Shown here: piece by piece, positions 39,297 through 55,949 of the stretch | Numbering within the stretch: position 1 is the stretch's first letter | How the letters are laid out: each line of letters opens with the position of its first letter | Source: Thozetella sp. PMI_491 | Lineage: Eukaryota > Ascomycota > Sordariomycetes > Chaetosphaeriales > Chaetosphaeriaceae | Direction of reading: 5' to 3' | DNA: 64,000 bases | Assembly (NCBI GenBank): GCA_021432635.1 | Contig: MU270021.1 | Span: forward strand, 62,001 to 126,000 | Made by a program: the position numbers and the translations under genes | The notes under the pieces: model-generated | What the model saw: the letters and a program-made list of their open reading frames with translations, nothing else | Databases searched by the model: none | What the model was told of the DNA's origin: nothing

Positions 39297-39950
39297 TTAC
39301 ATCTTAGCTTCTATATCCACCACAGGCATGGGCCGTTGCCTTGCCTCCTCCCATCTCGAGTGGACGAGTAGCAACCTTTCTTCTCGCTCAAATAGGTTGT
39401 TAGGAAGGACATAATAGGGAAGGCCTTGCTCGCTCAAGATCTTGCAGAATGCTTCATGCATCAAATACCAGTCCTCCGCGTCTTGTGGCATCAATCGTAC
39501 GCCGTCATCCACCAGGAACTTCACGCCGGCCTCGCAAACAACGATCACTGAGTTCGCCATTCTTGCCCTCAGTATTGACCAGTCTGCCGACTGAAGAAGT
39601 GACTCCGGTGCCCCAGGACCGGCATATCGGCTGGCGTATACGATAGGGTCGATCCCAGAACGGTCTGACACAAACCAAGGGGCCTGCCGGAGCGCTGCCT
39701 CTTCGGCTTCTCCCTGTGCCGCTAGTATTAACTGCTGCAGAGACAGGCACGCGTCGAAACTGGCTAGGATGTCGTCTCGGGTGAAGTTATGCTGCTTCAG
39801 CACGGTGCGGGCTACTTCGGTGACAACAGCGGGTGCGTCAACGCCCGGAATCACCGAGGCATTGAAGTGTTTTTGCAGATCGTCCACAAGAGTCGACTTG
39901 CCGGTGCTCGGGGCGCCGACGATGTAGATGCTCGGTGGGCGGCGGGACAT
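39297..39950 (-). CDS. AAA_28-like P-loop ATPase/kinase
   Basis: An intronless frame of 217 residues. The Walker A motif GAPSTGKSTLVDDL is at residues 12-25. A VSDRSGIDPIVYA segment near 95 resembles the Walker B/lid region of NadR-type nucleoside or nicotinamide-nucleotide kinases and of the fungal AAA_28 family. MPQDAEDWYLMHEAF and GLPYYVLP near the C-terminus also fit that family. It is probably a cytosolic nucleotide-binding enzyme; the substrate is unknown. The start codon lies 197 bases from that of the divergent RdRP-helicase gene, so they may share a promoter. Confidence 0.82.
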   Translation of the reverse strand: MSRRPPSIYIVGAPSTGKSTLVDDLQKHFNASVIPGVDAPAVVTEVARTVLKQHNFTRDDILASFDACLSLQQLILAAQGEAEEAALRQAPWFVSDRSGIDPIVYASRYAGPGAPESLLQSADWSILRARMANSVIVVCEAGVKFLVDDGVRLMPQDAEDWYLMHEAFCKILSEQGLPYYVLPNNLFEREERLLLVHSRWEEARQRPMPVVDIEAKM

Positions 39951-40147
39951 GCTTGCTAGTTCGGTCTCGGTGAGGTGTCAAGCGGGGAAAGCGGCGATAT
40001 GTCGAGGTAGAGCAAGGCTGAAATGGCTGCTGTGTAACAAGAAGATTCGCAAAGTGGGGGGCAAGGTTCGTAGCACATCTAGCAACCCAATCTCCCTCTT
40101 TTCCTCGCCCAAGATCGAACCCTTAAAGCACAGAGCCGTTTCGCACA
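39951..40147. promoter_or_regulatory. Short bidirectional promoter (ATPase / RdRP-helicase)
   Basis: 197 bases separate two divergent start codons. There is no room for a further exon of the RdRP gene unless transcripts overlap, which supports 40148 as its start. Confidence 0.5.
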
Positions 40148-43100
40148 ATGCCACAAGAAAAGGAGAACCTCAAAACCTTTAGGCGCAAGCTAAAGGACCA
40201 GCTCAGTCTAGATGACTGCGAATGGCGATTCCATGTTCCCGATCTTCCCAGCCCCGAGGTTCTCCACGTGCAACAGCTCATCAAGACGGTTTCAATTGCC
40301 ACCGTAGGCCTGCAGCATGAAGCCCATTTGAGCCTCGTTCCTGCTCATACGAACCGAGCCATCAGAGGCAACCCTTTACACAAGTTCGTCCTCTTGTCGT
40401 TTGCCCGGTTTCGTCCAGTCAAGACGCCACTGGGTGCAGCAACGCCCTCTTTCCAACCCGCGACGCCCCGAGAGTGCACCGACTACAAAATACGGCTTCT
40501 AAAAGCCGGGATATGGCTGCAAGGGACACATTACAACTTCTACGGCCATAGCAATAGCCAGCTCAAGTCAGCGACATGTTTCCTTTACGCCGGCACACCG
40601 GCAGAGTGCGAGAAGAAGATACAGGCACAAGGCGACTTTACCACGATGAAAACAGTCGCCAAAAAATCGAAGCGCATTGGTTTGTTGTTCTCACTTGCGC
40701 AAATTGCCGCTACTGTTGAGCCGGATAGGTGCGAAGACATTGTCGACATCGAAAAGGACGGCTACGTCCTGACTGACGGGTGCGGCCTCATCGCGCCTAG
40801 CCTTGCCCACGAGCTTGCCAGACGCCAGAAAATGGCTTTTCGAGACCGTCGATACACGCCTTCCGTCTTCCAAATTCGCTATCGCGGCTACAAAGGGGTG
40901 GTCACAGTAGATCCTCGAATGCGAAGTGGTCAGACGTTGCTTAAATTGCGGAAATCAATGAAAAAGTTTCAGGACGGCCAGGATTACTCTTTTTCGGTGG
41001 TGGGGCATTCTTCGGTGAGAATATAGACACCTAAGCAGTGAGGTTATGCGAGCCTTGTGAGAAGCTTGCTAATGATGATGGAGTAGCCCTATACATTCGG
41101 GTTCCTCAACGACGAGGTTGTGCTCTTGTTACATTCTCTTGGTATTGACACGGATATCTTGATGCGCAAGCAGCAACAACACTTTAAATTGCTGTCGGAA
41201 GCGTCAGACGACCCCCGCGCCGCCTTTCGTTTCTTGTCGTATGCGAATATGCCCGCGCTTGCAGAACAGATGCTGCTTAGCGAGTCTCTTGCAGGTTTAC
41301 AATCTAGAATTCAATCTCAGATCCGCAGTGAATTCTCCAAGATGCTCAATAAGCGAGACGAGCAGAAATGCCGCATACTAGTGTTGCAATCAAGGCTTTT
41401 GTTCGGAGTCTGCGATGCTTGGGATGTCCTAGAGGAGGGAGAATGTTATGTCAAGATCACCATGGATAGCGATGGCGTTCCTAGGGCTTTGACCAATACC
41501 GAAGTCTTGGTGACACGAAATCCGTGCCTGCACCCCGGGGACCTGCAAAAGTTCAAAGTTGTCGACCGACCCGAACTATCACATCTCATCGATTGTATTG
41601 TCTTTTCGACACGAGGACGGCGACCAGCGGCCGACCTAATGTCGGGCGGGGACCTGGATGGTGACAAGTGTGAGTCTGGCCAAGAATAACCGGCGCTTCT
41701 ATAGTTCCACTAATTCGTCATCCAAGTCTTTGTTTGCTGGGATCGCGACCTCATTCCTTCCACTATAGCGGATCCAGCCGAATACCCAGGTGGTCGAGAG
41801 CCTCTCACCTTCAAGGCCATCACTCGAGACGATCTCCTTGAGTACTTTGCAAGATATACGAATGCCTCCTTGGGCCGCGTGAAGAGCCTATATCTCGAGT
41901 GGGCGAGGCGCGAGGGCCCGATGAGCCCTCCATGCCAAGAGCTCAACCGGCTCTTCTCTCAATGCGTAGATGGCAATCGAATCAAGATCCCGAAAGCACT
42001 AGAAGAACCGCCAACGGTTGATATGCCTCCTTTCGTGCTCGACGACTTGCATGCCGATGCCCTCATGCAGACCCAACGTCATTCGGTTACCAAGGCGGGA
42101 GCGTGGGATGGATTCTCCTTCAATGCCATCGAGCTTTTGTTAAGTCATGACGATATGGCTATTTCTGAGTTCGAGATTGTGCAAGTGCTTGCCAAGTGGT
42201 GTCAAGACAACAAATCGTGCCTTGAACAGTTCCTCGACTACATCGATTTCAACATTCTTGATGCCACGGAAAAGGCTTGGGTGCTTGGCCAGTTACCGGA
42301 AACCTGCTGGACACCAAGTCAGGTGCTGAACGCGATTTGCACTTCCAAGATATTAGGAGTGCATGAACTGGGTCCGTTTGAGCTCGACTCTCCAGGCACC
42401 AAGTGGAAACGTGTTTACGATTCGTCCCGGGATCGGCTCGCAACATTCTTGGAGACGGTATCTAGCACATTGGACATATTCCACAAAAAGATGATTGTGC
42501 TCTCGGTCGATGAGCGGCTCTCTATCGCTCTGTACATACCTCGAAAGATCGAGCAGCATCGAGACGTCGAAGTCGGCACAGACATACGGGTTTTTGCCTT
42601 CCCACATACACAGGGCACCGAACGACAGAGCCGATTAGTCCTCCCGACCAAGACCAACTATAAATTATACCACGACGATGCTACCTTCCAGCTATTCGAT
42701 AATAAGCGCGGGAACACATGGGTCTATCTCGCCCGTGGCCAGTTCGACGACAGAACCTATCGAAACGTGCGAGAGACAGGAGAACGGCGCAGAGCACAAC
42801 AAGTCACCATCGACAGCAAACAAAACTTTGACTGTCGGGCGAGCATTGCCTTGGACAAGTTTAGCAAAAGTTTACAAAGGCATGTTGGCAGAGTGAATCG
42901 GCACGGCATCCAAGGAGCAGAGATCTATGTCATCAGCAACCGAGACGTCCGGTCAATGCAAAATCTCGATCGCTGGCTCGAGTACGTTGACACGCAAAAG
43001 ACCATGCCCTTATTTGAAAGAGAAGGGCGAGAGTACACTGTTCCGACTATTAAAGACCTGAAGAATCTGTCAGATGAGGACCTGGTGGTGCAAATTGCGA

Positions 43101-45537
43101 AGTACCAAAACTATGATGCATTTAACACAGTGGAAACAGAGAATCAGCTTCTGGATCTCTTCAACTGGCTTCATGAGAGAGACAAGAAGGATATCCTGCT
43201 CGCGGCCTTCGAACATCTACTAGTTGCCATGAGTCAACCTTCAGAACACACATTGAGGCTTGACTTGCCGAGCATAGTCGAGGTCTTGCTTCAGGTGCTT
43301 GCAAAAGCCCCCTACTTAGCTATTGCTTATGGAAAGCTCCTGATAAGGGACCTCAAGACTGACCAGATGAAAACAATAGTCAGCTTGTCGAGTAGAGCCG
43401 TCCTGCGAGCGTTCGTCCTCGCCGCCAACGAAGCCAACAACTTTGTTATTGCCCCTTTCCACGCATTCCTCTCCAGTATGCAAAGCATCTCCATGGAAGT
43501 TTTTGCCGAACTTGTCGAGCTCATTTCTCTCGCGATACGTCACCCCGAAATCGCCATGGAACTTCTTCTTGCAGGCCTCGAAGCAGAAAGCACCAGATTG
43601 CTCATTGGTAGGCCCGCCATCAATCGCTACTTTGTACGCAATCTCATCGGGATTGCGCTCGACCATATTGGAGAGGCTTTGGAAAACGCAAAGGAAAGAG
43701 AAGACATGCTGGACATAGAGCTGCTCCCCATTCGGGAAGGTGGCTTTGAGATGATCTCCGTCCGCTTTCGGATCGACGCTCCTGGAGGAACTCCAGAAGC
43801 AAACACACATGTACGACTCACAGCTGCGAACTTGCCTGTCAATATTACCTTAGGGCAGCCGTATTCGATGGATTGCCTTGTCATGCACACAGAGCAAGGA
43901 CAGGCGAAACTGCAGTGCTTGCACCCACTACCGCCTTTCTTTGCGGAATGCCACTGGATGTTAACATCTTGTGGGCCATTCGTAACCACCAAAACCATGC
44001 TTGATGCTGTTTACAAATTAGCAATACAACAAGAGAGCTGCTGCCATATTGCACCTCAGATTTTGGGTATCTCTGCCCCGGAAATGGCGACTGGGGTAGA
44101 AGAACAGTCAAGTTCTTTTCAATATCCTGAGCATTTCAACCAGCACCAGAAGGAGGCTGTTCAAGCAGTACTAGGCTCTCGTCTTGTTTGTCTTTGGGGC
44201 CCCCCAGGAACAGGGAAGACAGAAACGATTGTCGAGATGCTTCGTGCCCTCCAAGTGTCTTATGACCAGGCCCGCATATTGGTATCAACCCCTACCCATG
44301 CGGCCGTAGACAATGTGATGAGGCGCTATCTTGCCATGCAGGAGAGCAGAGATACTGAGAGTTGCGCCAAGTTTTCACCATTGAGAGTCTCGACAGACGT
44401 AAGCCATAAGTAATTATTTTCTTAGAGCATTAACTGATGTCTTCACAGGTACGAAAGGTTTCTGCAGATCTTCGGAAGTACACCTGCGACGCCATGCTTG
44501 GCAAAGAGATCTACATGGATCATGTCACGATGAGAAAAGCAAAACAGAGAGTCAAAAATTGCCGCATCATCTTCACCACCTGCATAGGCAGTGGGCTTGG
44601 ACTTCTGCGAGATCAAGACTTCGATGTGGTCGTTCTAGATGAAGCATCGCAGCAGACGGAACCAGCCGCTCTGGTACCCTTAGTTAAAGGTTGTAGCAGG
44701 GCAATCCTTGTCGGCGATCATGTCCAGCTTCGTCCGACTGTGCAGCAATTGGCCCTCTCGATGGACTTCGACGTGTCTCTCTTTGAGCGTTTATACCAGC
44801 ACCAGAACCTACCTGGCAGGACCAATGGAAGGGCAGCCAAGACGTCTATATCACGTCTCATGCTCGAAACGCAGTACCGAATGCACCCTTCTATCTGTGA
44901 AATTGCGTCGAGGGAGTTTTATGACTCGAAGCTTCGAACCGGTATTAAGGCAGAGGATAGACCATTGGCGAGGTCTTGCTTTCCCTGGCCGGCCAATACT
45001 GAAGGAGCTAAAACCGCCAAGAGAACTATCTTTGTGGAATGTTCGGCTCCGGAAGAGCCAGGCCGAAAGTCCAAGAGCAACACTGGCCAGGCCAAAATAT
45101 GCGCCGCTATCTGTAAACTACTCGTCAGTCCGCGTCAGGATTTCGAGGGTAGTCATATTGATGGAGGCGCCAATGGCAATGAGAAAGCAGTCAGCATCGA
45201 AATGCAGACTATCGCCGTTCTAACGCCATACGCGCGTCAGGCTGAGATTCTAAGAAGCGAGCTCTCGGCATTGTCTCAAGTGGAGGTGTCAAGCATCGAC
45301 GGCTATCAAGGTCGCGAAGCAGATGTTGTCGTATTCGTCAGTGTTCGTTGTAACCAGAAAAGGGAGATCGGCTTTTTGAAAGACCTTCGGCGAATGAATG
45401 TGGCCTTGACCAGATGTCGAGCAGGCCTGATTGTGGTAGGAAATAAGGCAACCCTCACGGAGGGAACCAAGGATACAGAGAGTACCGCCATGTGGAATCG
45501 GTTGCTGCAGACGCTCACACCTATCGAACTACCTTGA
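40148..45537 (+). CDS. RNA-dependent RNA polymerase fused to an UPF1/Hrr1-like SF1 helicase
   Basis: Four exons (40148-41014, 41087-41669, 41727-44398, 44449-45537) encode 1736 residues with exact phases. Residues about 60-560 are a cellular RdRP of the RNA-silencing type: GHSNSQLKSATCFLY, GYVLTDGCGLIAPSLA, VFQIRYRGYKGVVTVDP, SSPYTFGFLNDEVV, and the catalytic LMSGGDLDGDKFFVCWD at about 475-490 (DLDGD binds Mg2+; the intron sits right after it). The RdRP starts almost at its core and lacks the usual long N-terminal part. Residues about 700-1280 form a linker. Residues about 1290-1736 are an SF1 helicase: WGPPGTGKTETI at about 1307, VVLDEASQQTEP at about 1435, LETQYRMHPSI, SSIDGYQGREADVVVFV, RRMNVALTRCRAGL. 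In fission yeast the equivalent activities are separate RDRC subunits (Rdp1 and Hrr1), so this is a one-chain version likely making double-stranded RNA. Confidence 0.93.
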
Positions 45538-46265: not shown

Positions 46266-48472
46266 CTACCCCACGACACGTGCTGTTTCTATAGAATACC
46301 TCTCCCTTCCACTACACTTTGACAATAGCGGATTCATGGTCTGCGCCTTGGTAACATATTTGCCCATTTTGCGCGGGGGGACTCCCTTCTCGAACATCTC
46401 GTCGATCTCGGCAGCATTGCGGCGAGAGCATTCAGGAAGCATGAACCAGAGGGCCACGCACGCGATGCTTCCCGTGCCGAAGAACAGCCACGCAGTCTTA
46501 TACCCCCAGTTGGCCTTGTTTACATCGACTTCAGTACTGTTAGCAGAGCCTCAACTCGGTTTAGGTCTAGAATAGTGAGCAGCCTACGCATAAGTGGGAC
46601 GGTGGTGTTGAAAATAAGGCCAAAAACTACCGCCAAGCCCTGGGCGACACCTGCGGTTCTGGCGCGGAGCTTCTGCGCCCCGACCTCTCCAGAAAAAGCA
46701 CCCCCAAGGCTACCAACTAGAAGAAGACAAACGTTTAGTATGGGTTTCCATGTCGAGCAGCGGGGGTTGATATAAGATCCTTACCGATACTGTTGAAGAA
46801 GGACCAGACACAGGCAACAAAGATGAGGAAGTTCATGAGAGCGGGGGTCTGAGGCACGAGACCCAAGATGCCGACGACGAGCAAGGTGCACATACAGGCC
46901 CCGGCAGAAACTAGAACGAGAAGTCGGCGGCCAACCTTATCGGAACCCAGCATTAGACAGAAGGCAGCGAAGAGCTGGATGCAGCCTTTATTGGTATTAT
47001 CATATTAGCCAAACGCCAAGCGATAACGGGTGTTCATAAGGAGAGGCCGCGTGGCTCTATTGACGTACATTGAATTGTAGTGATGAGGAAGGCATTAGTA
47101 AATCCGCTTTGCTTAAAGAAAAGACTGGCGTAGACGTTGAGGAAAGACAGTCCAGAAAGCTGCTGCGAGCAGGACGGTAACGTGGCTCCGATGGTCCGGC
47201 GTAGGTTCGTGCCACGGAAGCATTCGGCATATGAGTTGAGGATTTCCTTGAAACTCTGATTTGACTTTTCTCCTCGCTCTTCGAATTGCAGTCTGCGTTC
47301 TTCCATAATAGTGTTCTTGATGATGGAATACTCGAGTTCGACATCATAACCTTCCACCGAGCCATTCACCCTGCGAAGCGTGGCCTTGCCCTTCTCGTCC
47401 ATATCACGCTCAGCGTAGTATGCTGTGATAGCGGTTAGTTCATCTTGTTCCTTGTAGCCGAGAAGCACCAATATGGCCTAGGAGACAAACCAGCCGTTTC
47501 AGGGAGCCACAAAAAGATCGGTAGCATCAATCCCAGTAAGCCCCATTGAGTTAGTATGGGGATCTTGTAGTTGAGAGGATCGCTCTGCTGGCACAGCATG
47601 AGGACGAGATTGGCCAGGAATTTGCCGATGGTATTCCAGAACCCATAAGTCACGATCATGGCTCCACGGATGTTGACCGGAGACCACTCGGTGATGTAGA
47701 TTGGCAGCGTAGCTTGGATGGCTCCGACACCGACGCCGGCCAGGACCTTAGCACCGGTCCAATCGCTCCAGTCACGCACAAGTGATTCGATGATGAGGGA
47801 CTGGCCGGATAGAACGCGCGTTAGATACATGCCAGGATATAGATGACCCGGTAACAGTGTTGCTTACGCCGGCAAGAAGCACCCACAAAACGTTTAACGT
47901 TTGCTTCCGTCCAAGTCGGTCAGAGATAGGATTCAGGAGCACCTGGCCAATAAGCTGGCCAAGGGACTGCATCGCTCCCCAGAGGGCCGTATATTCTGCC
48001 TTAAGAGTGTATACCCCAGCACTGTTCTGGAATCCAATGTGATTGGTGAATCCCTGATTAGCGATGATACCGCCTAGGTTAACGTAAGTTTTGGGTTGTT
48101 AGACTTCTAGCAATCAGGGGATTTGCAGGAAAGATGAGGGAGAGTTGTCTCTTACCATTCAGATTGATTTGGTAGCCGTCGGCTGCGGCTGCGATACACA
48201 TCAGATTACAAATGAGAACAGCCTAAGAATTACCAACTGTTAACCAACAGCCCTGCCTAGAACGTCACTCAAAGGTGGGCGTATGATGCGCTCTTGGTCT
48301 TATTCACCTTTGGGAACTTGCGAACTGTTTCCCACATTCCCAGCTCGTCGATAGCTGATTTCATCACCACGGCGACTTTAGCAGTGTCGTCGGAGCTCTT
48401 CTTCGCCCCGGATTCGACGTGCTGGATTTCGTCCTGCCCAGGGGCGACATTCTTCTCTAAGGCTATCGACAT
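46266..48472 (-). pseudogene. MFS sugar transporter, apparently interrupted
   Basis: Exons (48472-48308, 48222-48156, 48073-47868, 47800-about 47490, about 47477-47069, 46985-46795, 46716-46588, 46528-46266) rebuild a 12-helix sugar permease of the maltose/alpha-glucoside type: KFPKAVLICNLMCIAAAADG, NPISDRLGRKQTLNVLW, WTGAKVLAGVGVGAIQATLP, ITEWSPVNIRGAM, IFLWLPETA, QQLSGLSFLNVYASLFF, GSLGGAFSGEVGAQKLRART, NKANWGYKTAW. Between LPETA and AILVLLGYKEQ the frame shifts, and a TAG (47478-47480) follows WFVS. The residues normally found there are missing, and no intron can repair this. Either a deletion inactivated the gene or the assembly is wrong. Its promoter keeps two palindromes shared with the GH78 locus. 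Confidence 0.75.
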
Positions 48473-51061: not shown

Positions 51062-52886
51062 TCAAATTGGCCCCCTCGCAAGCTCGTCTGAGGCCTTAGA
51101 GTCTAGTTTCGCTAGCAAGTCGAGCAGCTGTTCGAACTGGGACCTAGATACATTCTGGATCGTCTCGTTATTCTCATTGTGAATTAGTTCGAGCAGTGTG
51201 CTGCCGACACGACGGATACGCTCGACCTGTGGGCGCGGGACAGGACGATTAATAACTGAGTAGAGAGGAAGCGAAAATGAGGATGGCGCCAGCACGGATA
51301 CTTACCGCTGTTTCCCCTTGTACCTTGAAGCAGATGAATGGCACAATTTGCAGCTCGTGGAGAAATTCCTGCGAGATTTCGATTTTCCTTGTCGCCCAAG
51401 AGAGCGAGGTATTGTTCAGGCCCATGACGGCTGTGCAGTTGTGGTCGATGCACTTCTGCAAAATGACCAGCTTCATGCAGTGAAACACGGTCATAATGTT
51501 GCTTCTCTGCGCCCAGAAGCATGTCTTCTGGTAAGCTGCGACTTCTTCGTCGACGATCACGCCGTAGTTATCGGGCTGCCTTAGCCATGTCGGAAGTTGA
51601 TCGGCCAGGCCTGTGAAAAGCAGGTAGGCCTCGGTAAGCCTTGCTAGCTCAAGCTCCTCCTCTACAGGCTGGACCAAGCCTTGCTTCTTTCGACGCGAAA
51701 GTGCTTTCATGTCGCTCATTAAGTCGGCGGCAGCCGCCCAGATCCGCCTTTTCAGGTGGAAGCCGACGAAAATGCGAGCTTCCAACGAGCCCTGATTTAT
51801 GCTTTTTGAAGGATCCAACAGCGGTTCCTCTTTCTCACTGTTATCCAGCAAATCGAATTCACGGTCAAAAAGAAGTTCGTTCAAAATTGGTGGCCGCGTT
51901 TCCAGGGCGGAAGCGGTTTTATCCGCTAAGAAGAGAAGCCAGAATATAGCCCGAAGTACCTGTGATTCTACATTCGATTCCCGCTGTACTGCTTTCTCGT
52001 TGTACAGTCGGAGTCTTTGAGCGAGATATGCAGCCTCTGCATGGTAGTGATAGGAGGTACCAACTCTGCCAGTTCTATTCTGCGTAGCTGCTGAGTACCA
52101 CATCCGTATTGTCAAAGACGTTGAGTCTGGATACTGAAGATCGTACTCCTCGTACAGTTGGAGCGTTGCTCTCGAGGCGAGAAGGAATAGCTTTGAGAGT
52201 GGTATCTTTGGTGCCAGGCGAGTGTCGGGGATGACTGCTGTGACGAATGAGCAGAGCGCCGTAATGAGCGTAAATCTCCTCAGACATGCTATCTGCAGCT
52301 GAAAATCGGAAGAAGAAGAGAGATCAGCCAGGGTTGAGTGGCTTTCGGGTGCTAGCAAGATAGCTGCACCCCTAATCGTGGGTTCGTGGGCAATGGGTGT
52401 GTTTGGAAATAGGTACTGGAAGAAATACTCTACACATTCGCATGTCAAGTCGGTAATTGTTTTTGGGGCTAGTATAGCGTTGACCTCAACCACTAGGTTA
52501 GCCTGGATATAGCCAAGATCGTGGTGAAAGCTGCTGAAGATTGATGTCCCACTTCCAACTCCAAGATCAAAGATTAAGGCCGAGCCCGGGCTTTGATACG
52601 ACTGTGGGGATGGTTGGCGGGCGTCGCCTGGAACTTGCTGTAGTTGTTGGTGGGCAATAACTGGCACGCTTCTTGGCTGTTGAGGCAACTGGACAGCAAC
52701 ACCGGGGTCACTCAAACCAACGTTCAGGACGGAACCGGGAGGCAGGGCTGCTTTGCGAGGGCGCCTCCTCGGAGAGCCACTGTAGACGCAGCGAATCTCC
52801 GAAGTGCCACAGTTGGCACATGGCTCCACACCGTCACATTTCACTTTTCGTCGACGGCAGGCATCGCAGGCGTGAGATGGAGGCAT
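51062..52886 (-). CDS. Zn2Cys6 transcription factor (fourth), likely regulator of the glycoside module
   Basis: Exons 52886-51306 and 51226-51062 (79-nt intron) encode 581 residues. The zinc cluster begins at residue 7: CDACRRRKVKCDGVEPCANC and a last Cys at RCVYSG, followed by the basic linker SPRRRPRK. Residues about 155-500 are the fungal-specific domain. The gene is divergent from the GH78 rhamnosidase, with 525 bases between their starts that contain two ATTCC-NN-GGAAT palindromes at -60 to -148 of this gene. The same paired sites occur before the sugar transporter. It therefore probably controls itself, the rhamnosidase and the transporter, in response to a plant sugar. The ligand is unknown. 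Confidence 0.88.
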
Positions 52887-52945
52887 TTGCGCTACCGCTA
52901 CACATCAAGACAGAGACAATGACACTTCTCTGTGGGCGAGTAGTT

Positions 52946-53034: not shown

Positions 53035-53411
53035 GCAATTCTGGGGCTGTGGGGTTTGCGGGGTACTGAACCTCAGCTAGCTTATAGAGGTTAGTGGTAG
53101 TCGCTCTGGAGCGGCGGGCCTAGACGCGCCAGCCTCCGCGTGATAGCCTTTCCGTATTGGCCCGGGGCTCTTCATATCCATGTTTTCCTTCTAAGTTACT
53201 TCCGGTTGAGAGTCCATGGACTGATTATGGATCTTGCTTATGGCGGCACCAACTCGGTTTATCTCGTAGCGATACGTGGTCACGCGTCATGCTGCTTCTC
53301 AGGACGTCCTTAAAAGTCTGACTCTAGCACCGTCTGAAATAAATATCCATGTGAATCCGTGGAAGTTAGATAGAACTCATCCAAGACGGCCCTAATTGTC
53401 TTACCACTGGC

Positions 53412-55949
53412 ATGTCGGCGACTTTCGACAGGAGTTGGATCTGGCACCCGTCCTTTACAGAAGATCGGACGGACACCGCAGGGCTATTTGTCCATTTCCG
53501 GAGAGAGTTCACCATCGAGGAAGAGATCCCGGAGTCACTTAAAGTACAAATCACCGCCGATACGCGGTATAAGCTCTATGTTAACCACCAACCGGTCTCT
53601 TTCGGTCCCGTCAAAGGCGACCATACCCTGTGGTTCTACGACGAGGTCGACATTAAACCATACTTAAAGCAAGGCAGGAATCATGTTGGAGTACATATTC
53701 TTCGCTTCTTTTTCTCCACCCAACACGCTCCATCCTTCCCCCGTCTTCCTATTGGGGGTCTCAGAATCACGCTCGCTAAGGCCGACGACTTCTGGTCCGC
53801 AAAACTGGCGAGCAACGCTTCGTGGGAGACGGCAATCGATCCCCTCGCCACACTGCGGGTTGACGAGCCTGAGGATGTGTTCCTGCACATCTACGAGTTT
53901 CATCGCATGGCTGAGGCAACTACTCTACTCAACTGGGTGCCTGCCAAAGTTCTCGAGCTTAAAAATTCGACTGGGAATGCGCCGCCTTGGAACTTGTCAC
54001 CCCGCCTTATACCGCCTTACAGGATAGAGAGGATTTACTTCACAGCAATACACAATCTTCAGAGCAGCTTGGACCTGGAGAAGTGGAGCAGATTACTCTT
54101 AAAGTCCGACCAAGATGAAGGGGGGTGCAATGAGCTTCATATTTTGCCGGAATCAAAGCATCAACTTGAGCTTGAGATAGCCAACCATACTACTGGCTTT
54201 GTTCGGGTTCGCTTCAGGCGCCCGAAAGAAAGGGGAGGTTACGTCAAGCTAACCTATGCCGAGAGCTACGAGGACGAGCCGGACCTCTACGCCGGCATCC
54301 GGAGGAAGGGGCATCGCCGAGACACGACCAAGAAGCTCCTTGGCCCGTACGACCTGTATCATTTCAGAGGTGCAACTAACCTGCCTGTTTTGGGATACTC
54401 GGAACACGAAGAAACAGAAGAGATTTTCGTGCCGTTCCACTTTCGGACATTTAGATTCATCAGGTTGGAGATCGTTGCCGGATCTGGAAGCTTGACTTTC
54501 CTGGGGATCGAAATTAGTTCTGCAAACTACCCGTTGAATGTCACGGCGAACTTCAAGGCCAGCCCAGACAACGGCGGCGTGGAGCAGCTGTGGAGGACAA
54601 GTTTGCGCACGCTAGTCAATTGTATGCATGACTGCTACGAAGACTGCCCTTTCTACGAGCAGATGCAATATGCTATGGATACAAGAAGCTCTGCGCTCTT
54701 CACATACTGCGTTTCTGGCGAAGACGCCCTCGCCCGGCAAGCCATCATCCAGATTTACAATTCCTTCCAACCCAGGATCGGCCTTACCACAGCCAGGGCG
54801 CCGACCCACAAGCAGCAGTTCATACCACCTTTCTCCCTATACTGGATTCTCATGCTCAACGATCACCTAGACTACTTTGGCGACATGAGCTTCTTGTCTC
54901 GGTTCACCCCCGTTGTAGATGCTGTCCTATCCTACTTCGGGTCCCGCGTCGATGCTGAGCTGCAGCTCGTGCGTTCTGAATTTCGACCGGGAACATGGAA
55001 CTTCGTCGACTGGACCGAGGAATGGAAGCCCTACGGCTACCCGGCTGTATGTGAGCGGACCGGCTTTTCTACCTACACGAATGCCATCTACGCGTACGCA
55101 CTGAAGATTGCAGCCAAGCTTGTTTTCGAGCTCGGCAGACCTGCTATTGCTGAAGAGTACACGACACGCGCGGATAGTATCGTCGCAGGGCTTCAGAAAC
55201 ACTGCTTCGACGGGGAGTTCTTCACCGACAGCCTCACAACTGTGTGTACAAGTGACGACGGGTCATATAGCCAGCACAGCCAAGTTTGGGCGGTGCTTAG
55301 TGGGGCAGTCAGCGGAAGTGAGGCACAAACACTCCTGAGGAAGAGTATACAGCGGGCAAAATCTTCCCAGCTTGTCCAAGAATCCGTTTCCATGTCCTTC
55401 TATACCATGCGAGCACTCAGCATCGCCGGTGGCAGCATCTACGAAGAGCACTTCCATCAGTTCTGGAAACCATGGGCCGCACAGCTCAACCAGGGCCTGA
55501 CCACGTGGGTGGAGGATAGCGTTGCGCAGCGGTCGGACTGCCATGCCTGGGGAAGTGTGCCCCTGTACGAGTACATCGCTGAGGTGGCTGGGGTCACCCC
55601 TGCTGAGCCTGGCTGGAAAACTATCGACATACGGCCGAGGCTGAACCTCTTCCCTAATGTGGATGCTACGATACCCTTGAAGATGGCTGATGGCATGGCC
55701 ATTGGCAAGGTACATGTCTCATGGGCGAGAACAGAGATGGTCACGGAACAGAGTGTGATTGTGGACTTGCGGATCCAGGTAAATATCACTACAATAGAAG
55801 CGGCGACCCTTCGCGTTTTTTTGCCAGGAAAAGAAGTTATCATGACAGGGAACAAGCAGGAGCTGAAGTGTACAGTCAATATAGAGAGTTGTTCGCTCTT
55901 CTACGGCAACAACTTTCCAACCAAAGCTTACCATAACAAAGATACCTAA
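53412..55949 (+). CDS. GH78 alpha-L-rhamnosidase, intracellular type
   Basis: An intronless frame of 845 residues with no signal peptide. An N-terminal beta-sandwich (residues 1-150) leads to the (alpha/alpha)6 catalytic barrel at about 370-740. Catalytic-region landmarks: NCMHDCYEDCPFYEQMQYAMDTR at about 396-419 (corresponding to the usual DCPxRxExxxxxD), WNFVDWTEEW at about 530, ERTGFSTYTNAIYAYAL, and SDCHAWGSVPLYEYIAEVAG at about 713. A C-terminal sandwich starts at GWKTIDIRP. The enzyme releases terminal L-rhamnose from plant glycosides. Lack of a secretion signal implies that imported rhamnosides are cut inside the cell, which fits a linked sugar/glycoside transporter. It is divergent from a Zn2Cys6 regulator. 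Confidence 0.93.
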   Translation: MSATFDRSWIWHPSFTEDRTDTAGLFVHFRREFTIEEEIPESLKVQITADTRYKLYVNHQPVSFGPVKGDHTLWFYDEVDIKPYLKQGRNHVGVHILRFFFSTQHAPSFPRLPIGGLRITLAKADDFWSAKLASNASWETAIDPLATLRVDEPEDVFLHIYEFHRMAEATTLLNWVPAKVLELKNSTGNAPPWNLSPRLIPPYRIERIYFTAIHNLQSSLDLEKWSRLLLKSDQDEGGCNELHILPESKHQLELEIANHTTGFVRVRFRRPKERGGYVKLTYAESYEDEPDLYAGIRRKGHRRDTTKKLLGPYDLYHFRGATNLPVLGYSEHEETEEIFVPFHFRTFRFIRLEIVAGSGSLTFLGIEISSANYPLNVTANFKASPDNGGVEQLWRTSLRTLVNCMHDCYEDCPFYEQMQYAMDTRSSALFTYCVSGEDALARQAIIQIYNSFQPRIGLTTARAPTHKQQFIPPFSLYWILMLNDHLDYFGDMSFLSRFTPVVDAVLSYFGSRVDAELQLVRSEFRPGTWNFVDWTEEWKPYGYPAVCERTGFSTYTNAIYAYALKIAAKLVFELGRPAIAEEYTTRADSIVAGLQKHCFDGEFFTDSLTTVCTSDDGSYSQHSQVWAVLSGAVSGSEAQTLLRKSIQRAKSSQLVQESVSMSFYTMRALSIAGGSIYEEHFHQFWKPWAAQLNQGLTTWVEDSVAQRSDCHAWGSVPLYEYIAEVAGVTPAEPGWKTIDIRPRLNLFPNVDATIPLKMADGMAIGKVHVSWARTEMVTEQSVIVDLRIQVNITTIEAATLRVFLPGKEVIMTGNKQELKCTVNIESCSLFYGNNFPTKAYHNKDT

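Follow-up and report, generated by a model that had tools for sequence, protein, structure and literature searches.

A 64,000-nucleotide stretch of the genome of the fungus Thozetella sp. PMI_491 (contig MU270021.1, positions 62,001 to 126,000 of the forward strand; hereafter the window, to which all coordinates refer unless a contig is named) carries a gene at 40148-45537 on its forward strand that joins an RNA-dependent RNA polymerase (RdRP) to a superfamily 1 (SF1) helicase. The genome searched was assembled into 157 contigs totaling 72.3 Mb, and the window lies on the contig we number C7. The gene has four exons and three GT-AG introns, all on the forward strand, and 1736 codons closed by a single terminal stop; the computed mass of the predicted fusion protein is ~196 kDa. 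Exon 1 (40148..41014) encodes residues 1-289, a short N terminus followed by the start of the RdRP domain, and is separated by a 72-nt intron (41015..41086), whose retention would bring in an in-frame stop, from exon 2 (41087..41669), which carries the RdRP core as far as DLDGDK. The second intron (41670..41726; 57 nt) falls directly behind the DLDGD catalytic motif. Exon 3 (41727..44398), whose complete codons are residues 485-1374, holds the RdRP end, a middle region of ~700 residues and the helicase Walker A motif in one open frame. The third intron (44399..44448; 50 nt) lies within the helicase core, and exon 4 (44449..45537) supplies SF1 helicase motifs II-VI (the end of AAA_11, and AAA_12) and the stop. 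An earlier note on this DNA had given the gene boundaries and the introns at 41670-41726 and 44399-44448, which we reproduced exactly; the intron at 41015-41086 is also required.

The case for a single chain comes from exon 3. Its open frame of 890 codons starts right behind DLDGDKF and spans both the point where the RdRP match ends (42004) and Walker A (44198), so the modelled introns cannot split the two halves. As a simple control we shuffled the single bases of the locus 200 times, and the longest stop-free frame in any of the six was 277 codons. Pfam domains and sequence motifs agree with the earlier description of a DLDGD-type RdRP and an SF1 helicase in one stop-free spliced frame, and we regard the fusion as confirmed to be real, intact and one chain, at the level of a gene model predicted from genomic sequence.

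In the polymerase half, the Pfam RdRP model PF05183 matched residues 69-576 with 379 bits (E 4.5e-113; cut-off 23.8). The metal-binding motif DLDGD, at residue 478, conforms to the DxDGD pattern and sits in an SGG/AGG/GGG-DxDGD context common to the fusion and its four RdRP paralogues in the genome. By these features, this half is an RDR-type eukaryotic RNA-dependent RNA polymerase, with catalysis predicted. It scored ~201 bits to Arabidopsis RDR2 versus 77 bits to QDE-1. Identity to the four paralogues was only 27-29% over 352-494 residues, which indicates that the fusion RdRP is a separate, diverged branch. The short N terminus pointed out in the earlier note was borne out: the domain begins at residue 69 of the fusion, whereas three of its paralogues, read in their long frames, have starts at 478, 482 and 594. 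The fourth (QDE-1 type) is excluded from this comparison since its RdRP domain is split over frames. A long missing upstream part is unlikely, as only 198 bp separate the ATG of the fusion from that of a divergent neighbor, an AAA_28 ATPase at 39297..39977 on the reverse strand (first ATG at 39950), leaving little room for a long 5′ RdRP extension. The fungal PH-like domain PF25358 is present in two of the four paralogues and was not found in the fusion by Pfam scans of the whole protein and of the middle region.

The helicase half extends over residues ~1287-1707. Pfam AAA_12 matched residues 1482-1707 with 169 bits (E 1.3e-49) and AAA_11 gave 153 bits (E 2.2e-44) with its best stretch at 1405-1473, other P-loop models starting at residue 1287; the Pfam DEAD model reached only 28.6 bits (cut-off 26). 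An NCBIfam scan returned helicase models only, all far under their cut-offs. Using SF1 motif patterns and names of our own, we found in order GPPGTGKT at 1308, DEAS at 1438, GDHVQL at 1463, QYRMHP at 1516, DGYQGRE at 1658 and NVALTRC at 1691. With AAA_11, AAA_12 and the SF1 motifs all present, this half has the makeup of a UPF1-like SF1 helicase. Its motif II is DEAS, not DEAD, and DEAD-box helicases belong to superfamily 2. When compared with solved proteins in the Protein Data Bank, it scored ~162 bits to NAM7, 144 to human UPF1, 122 to SMUBP-2, 104 to DNA2 and 77.5 to human ZNFX1. The nearest solved helicases are therefore NAM7 and UPF1, from which the fusion differs in that the UPF2-binding CH domain (UPF1_Zn_bind, PF09416) was not detected by Pfam at E 0.001; the genome's true UPF1 gene carries PF09416 at 240 bits. 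The helicase had been described as UPF1/Hrr1-like, and these scores favor the first half of that label and do not support the second.

Further SF1 helicases are encoded elsewhere in the genome. AAA_12 gave 17 matches at 14 places, the fusion included, and the genes that could be named were UPF1 (with its UPF2-binding domain), SEN1, DNA2, Aquarius and SMUBP-2 (L037; 257.5 bits). At least two others are of the ZNFX1 type: L036 (G000:C9:768500-776000) scored 295.6 bits to human ZNFX1 versus 117 to UPF1, and L035 (G000:C31:326500-334500) 263.2 versus 74. A third gene, L039, joins them in the tree, with an NF-X1 zinc finger at sub-threshold level only. A separate SF1 helicase of 1112 residues, L034 (G000:C29:40500-48000), has UPF1 as its best solved match at only 99 bits, and may be MOV10-like. 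ZNFX-1 is reported to be the orthologue of fission yeast Hrr1 (PMC9276528); L036 and L035 are candidates for this fungus's counterpart of SAD-3/Hrr1.

We built two helicase trees, in both of which long branches were flagged. The first took in every one of the 14 AAA_12 places except the weakest (C17:803195), giving 13 rows, and placed the fusion beside DNA2 and L038 with an unstarred support of 80/85. The second retained eight of the 13 rows, leaving out L038, L040, L042, the Aquarius row and L034, and split the three ZNFX1-type rows from the fusion, UPF1, SEN1, DNA2 and the SMUBP2-like row with support of 100/100. By the approximately unbiased test (p-AU), pairing of the fusion with any one ZNFX1-type row was rejected (8e-9 for L036, 1e-6 for L035 and 1e-4 for the third row), and its placement as sister to all three together was not (0.24). 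Pairing with UPF1 was borderline (0.054); SEN1 gave 0.097 and DNA2 0.47. The best tree joined the fusion to the SMUBP2-like row with support of just 48/7, so that its position among UPF1, SEN1, DNA2 and SMUBP2-like is not fixed. The predicted helicase is thus likely, by its scores, UPF1/SMUBP2/DNA2-like and not Hrr1/SAD-3-like or DEAD-box. Nor does it look like an orthologue or replacement of Hrr1/SAD-3, given the scores, the pairing tests and the separate ZNFX1-type genes in the genome.

Between the two halves, the middle region (42005..44131, forward strand; residues 577-1285) has no Pfam match over cut-off, and its sole match when searched against the genome was itself. A BACK domain directly behind the RdRP, at residues 593-663 (42053-42265, forward strand), scored 18.4 bits (E 0.0023) against a cut-off of 20.9 and is not claimed; this sub-threshold stretch might still represent a genuine fold within the C-terminal part of the RdRP. 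We also rejected a fungal PH-like domain relocated behind the RdRP, as the middle region had no significant similarity to the paralogues' long frames and no Pfam match. A single-sequence AlphaFold2 model of the region, with a mean predicted local distance difference test score of 42.7, was too poor to support any claim. A plasmid collection returned nothing for the middle region, and exon 3 had no pattern match in a viral contig collection; in a genome contig collection, ten stretches fitted a pattern and none of the ten was confirmed. The collections searched for outside relatives were viral, prokaryotic and plasmid and are uninformative on how rare the fusion is.

By its domain matches, the genome holds the rest of a predicted RNA interference (RNAi) system. 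RdRP matches occur at five places including the fusion (seven matches, two genes being split in two), Piwi at two places (three matches) and Dicer_dimer at three. The four further RdRP genes, L044-L047, lie on contigs C52, C16, C69 and C6; the RdRP on C6 is QDE-1-like (954 bits to Neurospora QDE-1), a score that would suggest a Sordariomycete-like ascomycete, and those on C52 and C16 are 43% identical to one another.

The architecture of an RdRP with a C-terminal helicase is already published and is not new. FgRdRp5 (FGSG_09076) of Fusarium graminearum was described in 2015 as an RdRP with C-terminal DEAD-like/AAA domains (PMC4515635), and in 2024 it was deleted, phenotyped and analyzed by small-RNA sequencing (PMC11237814). 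The earlier note could not say whether such a fusion had been described; to a large extent FgRdRp5 makes it a characterized paralogue, with the kinship drawn from architecture (PMC11237814, PMC4515635). In both proteins the RdRP is followed by the helicase, at residues ~1287-1473 and 1482-1707 here and at 1277-1478 (DEXDc) and 1475-1677 (AAA) in FgRdRp5 (PMC11237814). Each is one of five RdRPs in its genome, and the RdRP half of FgRdRp5 is reported to be plant-RDR-like (PMC4515635, PMC4870495), as the fusion's is nearer to plant RDR than to QDE-1. FgRdRp5 forms a branch of its own, distinct from those of QDE-1, SAD-1 and RRP-3 (PMC4515635, PMC4870495, PMC11237814). The two differ in that the FgRdRp5 helicase is DEAD-like in print, whereas the fusion has a DEAS motif II and its best Pfam matches are the SF1 models AAA_12 and AAA_11; if the Fusarium protein is of the same kind, its DEAD label may be a misnomer.

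What has been reported for FgRdRp5 links it to sexual development, small RNAs and mycoviruses. Its expression increases ~10-fold during sporulation and on day 7 of sexual development. The deletion mutant discharges ascospores at 47.6% of the wild-type level; small RNAs antisense to exons account for a share of 18.91% in it instead of 27.3%, and 21-25 nt reads with a 5′ U fall by ~32%, this last a smaller drop than for two other RdRPs (PMC11237814). Mycoviruses FgV2 and FgV3 strongly induce FGSG_09076 (PMC4071046), hypovirus small RNAs are predicted to target it (PMC4870495, PMC9693516), and it is tabled with an antiviral defense role (PMC6764512). The role of its helicase was left by the authors to later work (PMC11237814), and in the literature searched, which did not include most subscription-journal papers, we found no paper that assays a fused RdRP-SF1 helicase biochemically or that tests whether its unwinding and synthesis are coupled.

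We consider it probable that this intact fungal gene acts in silencing and is of the same kind as FgRdRp5, an accessory RdRP joined to a UPF1-like motor. By analogy with FgRdRp5, the protein would copy aberrant or viral single-stranded RNA into double-stranded RNA (dsRNA) for Dicer and would contribute dsRNA toward Dicer-dependent exonic small RNAs. The SF1 motor, acting on the template RNA, might clear the polymerase's path of proteins or structure, or might separate product from template; since both activities would reside in one chain, 1:1 coupling of unwinding and synthesis follows as a prediction only. With four other RdRPs in the genome, the fusion would be an accessory paralogue, its main effect falling on sexual development and the antiviral response.

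Several points weigh against this assignment. The gene model and its protein are predicted from genomic sequence, and the kinship with FgRdRp5 is drawn from domain order and coordinates. Three of the four RdRP paralogues are likewise nearer to RDR2 than to QDE-1, so this feature is not specific to the FgRdRp5 kind. On the Fusarium side, mutants in RNAi components had no phenotype under the conditions tested in the 2015 study (PMC4515635), all five F. graminearum RdRPs rise in sporulation, and deleting two of the others lowers exonic small RNAs more (PMC11237814). A part for the helicase in silencing was not demonstrated in the literature we searched.

The alternative that survives best, although we think it rather unlikely, is that the helicase half serves RNA quality control and the fusion turns defective mRNAs into dsRNA for silencing. 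The closest solved helicases are indeed NAM7 and UPF1, and the FgRdRp5 mutant shows changes in ribosome biogenesis genes; its authors raised nonsense-mediated decay and rRNA processing as possibilities (PMC11237814). Against this stand the UPF2-binding domain, which Pfam did not find in the fusion and which is present in the genome's own UPF1, and the unsettled place of the helicase among UPF1, SEN1, DNA2 and SMUBP2-like, where a grouping with UPF1 was borderline rejected. An improbable further reading is a converter from surveillance to silencing, in which the UPF1-class motor would recognize aberrant or viral RNA, move along it and pass it to the polymerase in the same molecule.

RDRC, the RNA-directed RNA polymerase complex of fission yeast, consists of Rdp1, Hrr1 and Cid12, and the earlier note had likened the fusion to Rdp1 and Hrr1, or Neurospora SAD-1 and SAD-3, fused into one chain. 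On that reading, the fusion would replace the separate subunits. Like those pairs, the fusion teams an RdRP with an SF1 helicase; unlike them, it does so in one chain and with a helicase from another SF1 branch, as judged by the scores and pairing tests. We therefore abandoned the comparison and consider a single-chain RDRC very unlikely: the helicase scores 77.5 bits to ZNFX1 versus ~162 to NAM7 and 144 to UPF1, its pairing with each ZNFX1-type row was rejected, and separate ZNFX1-type genes exist in the genome, even though placement as sister to all three such rows was not rejected and Hrr1/SAD-3 helicases of other fungi do take part in RNA silencing, Hrr1 beside an RdRP (PMC5384783, PMC9276528). 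That two adjacent genes, encoding a separate RdRP and helicase, were misjoined by the splice model or the assembly is extremely unlikely. In a gene model predicted from genomic sequence, a middle region without a confident domain would permit a boundary, but the RdRP end and Walker A share one 890-codon frame free of introns and stops, against 277 codons for the longest frame in the shuffles, and F. graminearum annotation has the two domains in this order as well (PMC11237814, PMC4515635).

Other organisms also combine a helicase with an RdRP in one chain. In Dictyostelium, peronosporomycete oomycetes, Hydra and Nematostella an N-terminal DEAD-box helicase precedes the RdRP (PMC4791657); the helicase here is SF1 and C-terminal, which makes it a different fusion. 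Among fungi the fusion type may be patchy, given the two RdRPs of V. nonalfalfae, for which only the RdRP domain is named (PMC6572790), and the three of C. higginsianum (PMC4890784). F. fujikuroi has five RdRPs, rdr1-5, and RdRP, DEAD-like and AAA domains are named in the legend to a figure of its RNAi proteins; that legend covers Argonautes, Dicers and RdRPs jointly, and the DEAD domain may be a Dicer's (PMC11130915).

Downstream of the fusion, sugar transporter (PF00083) pieces lie on two overlapping open frames at 47034-47863 on the reverse strand. The window also contains Zn2Cys6 transcription factors of the fungal type, a gene content that marks the genome as a fungus's; one of these factors (51249-52904) adjoins an 859-aa open frame with a rhamnosidase-like domain (PF17389) at 53370-55949 on the forward strand.

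With the Thozetella gene, a class of silencing polymerases that has received little study gains an intact member, and the likely nature of the helicase is corrected to SF1, UPF1/SMUBP2/DNA2-like, and not DEAD-box or Hrr1-type. The UPF1/SMUBP2/DNA2-like scoring and the coexistence of separate ZNFX1-type helicase genes with the fusion are useful additions. They raise the question of whether a helicase tethered to an RdRP changes which RNAs become dsRNA. If the motor does hand aberrant or viral RNA to the polymerase within the same molecule, RNA quality control and RNAi priming would be one step.

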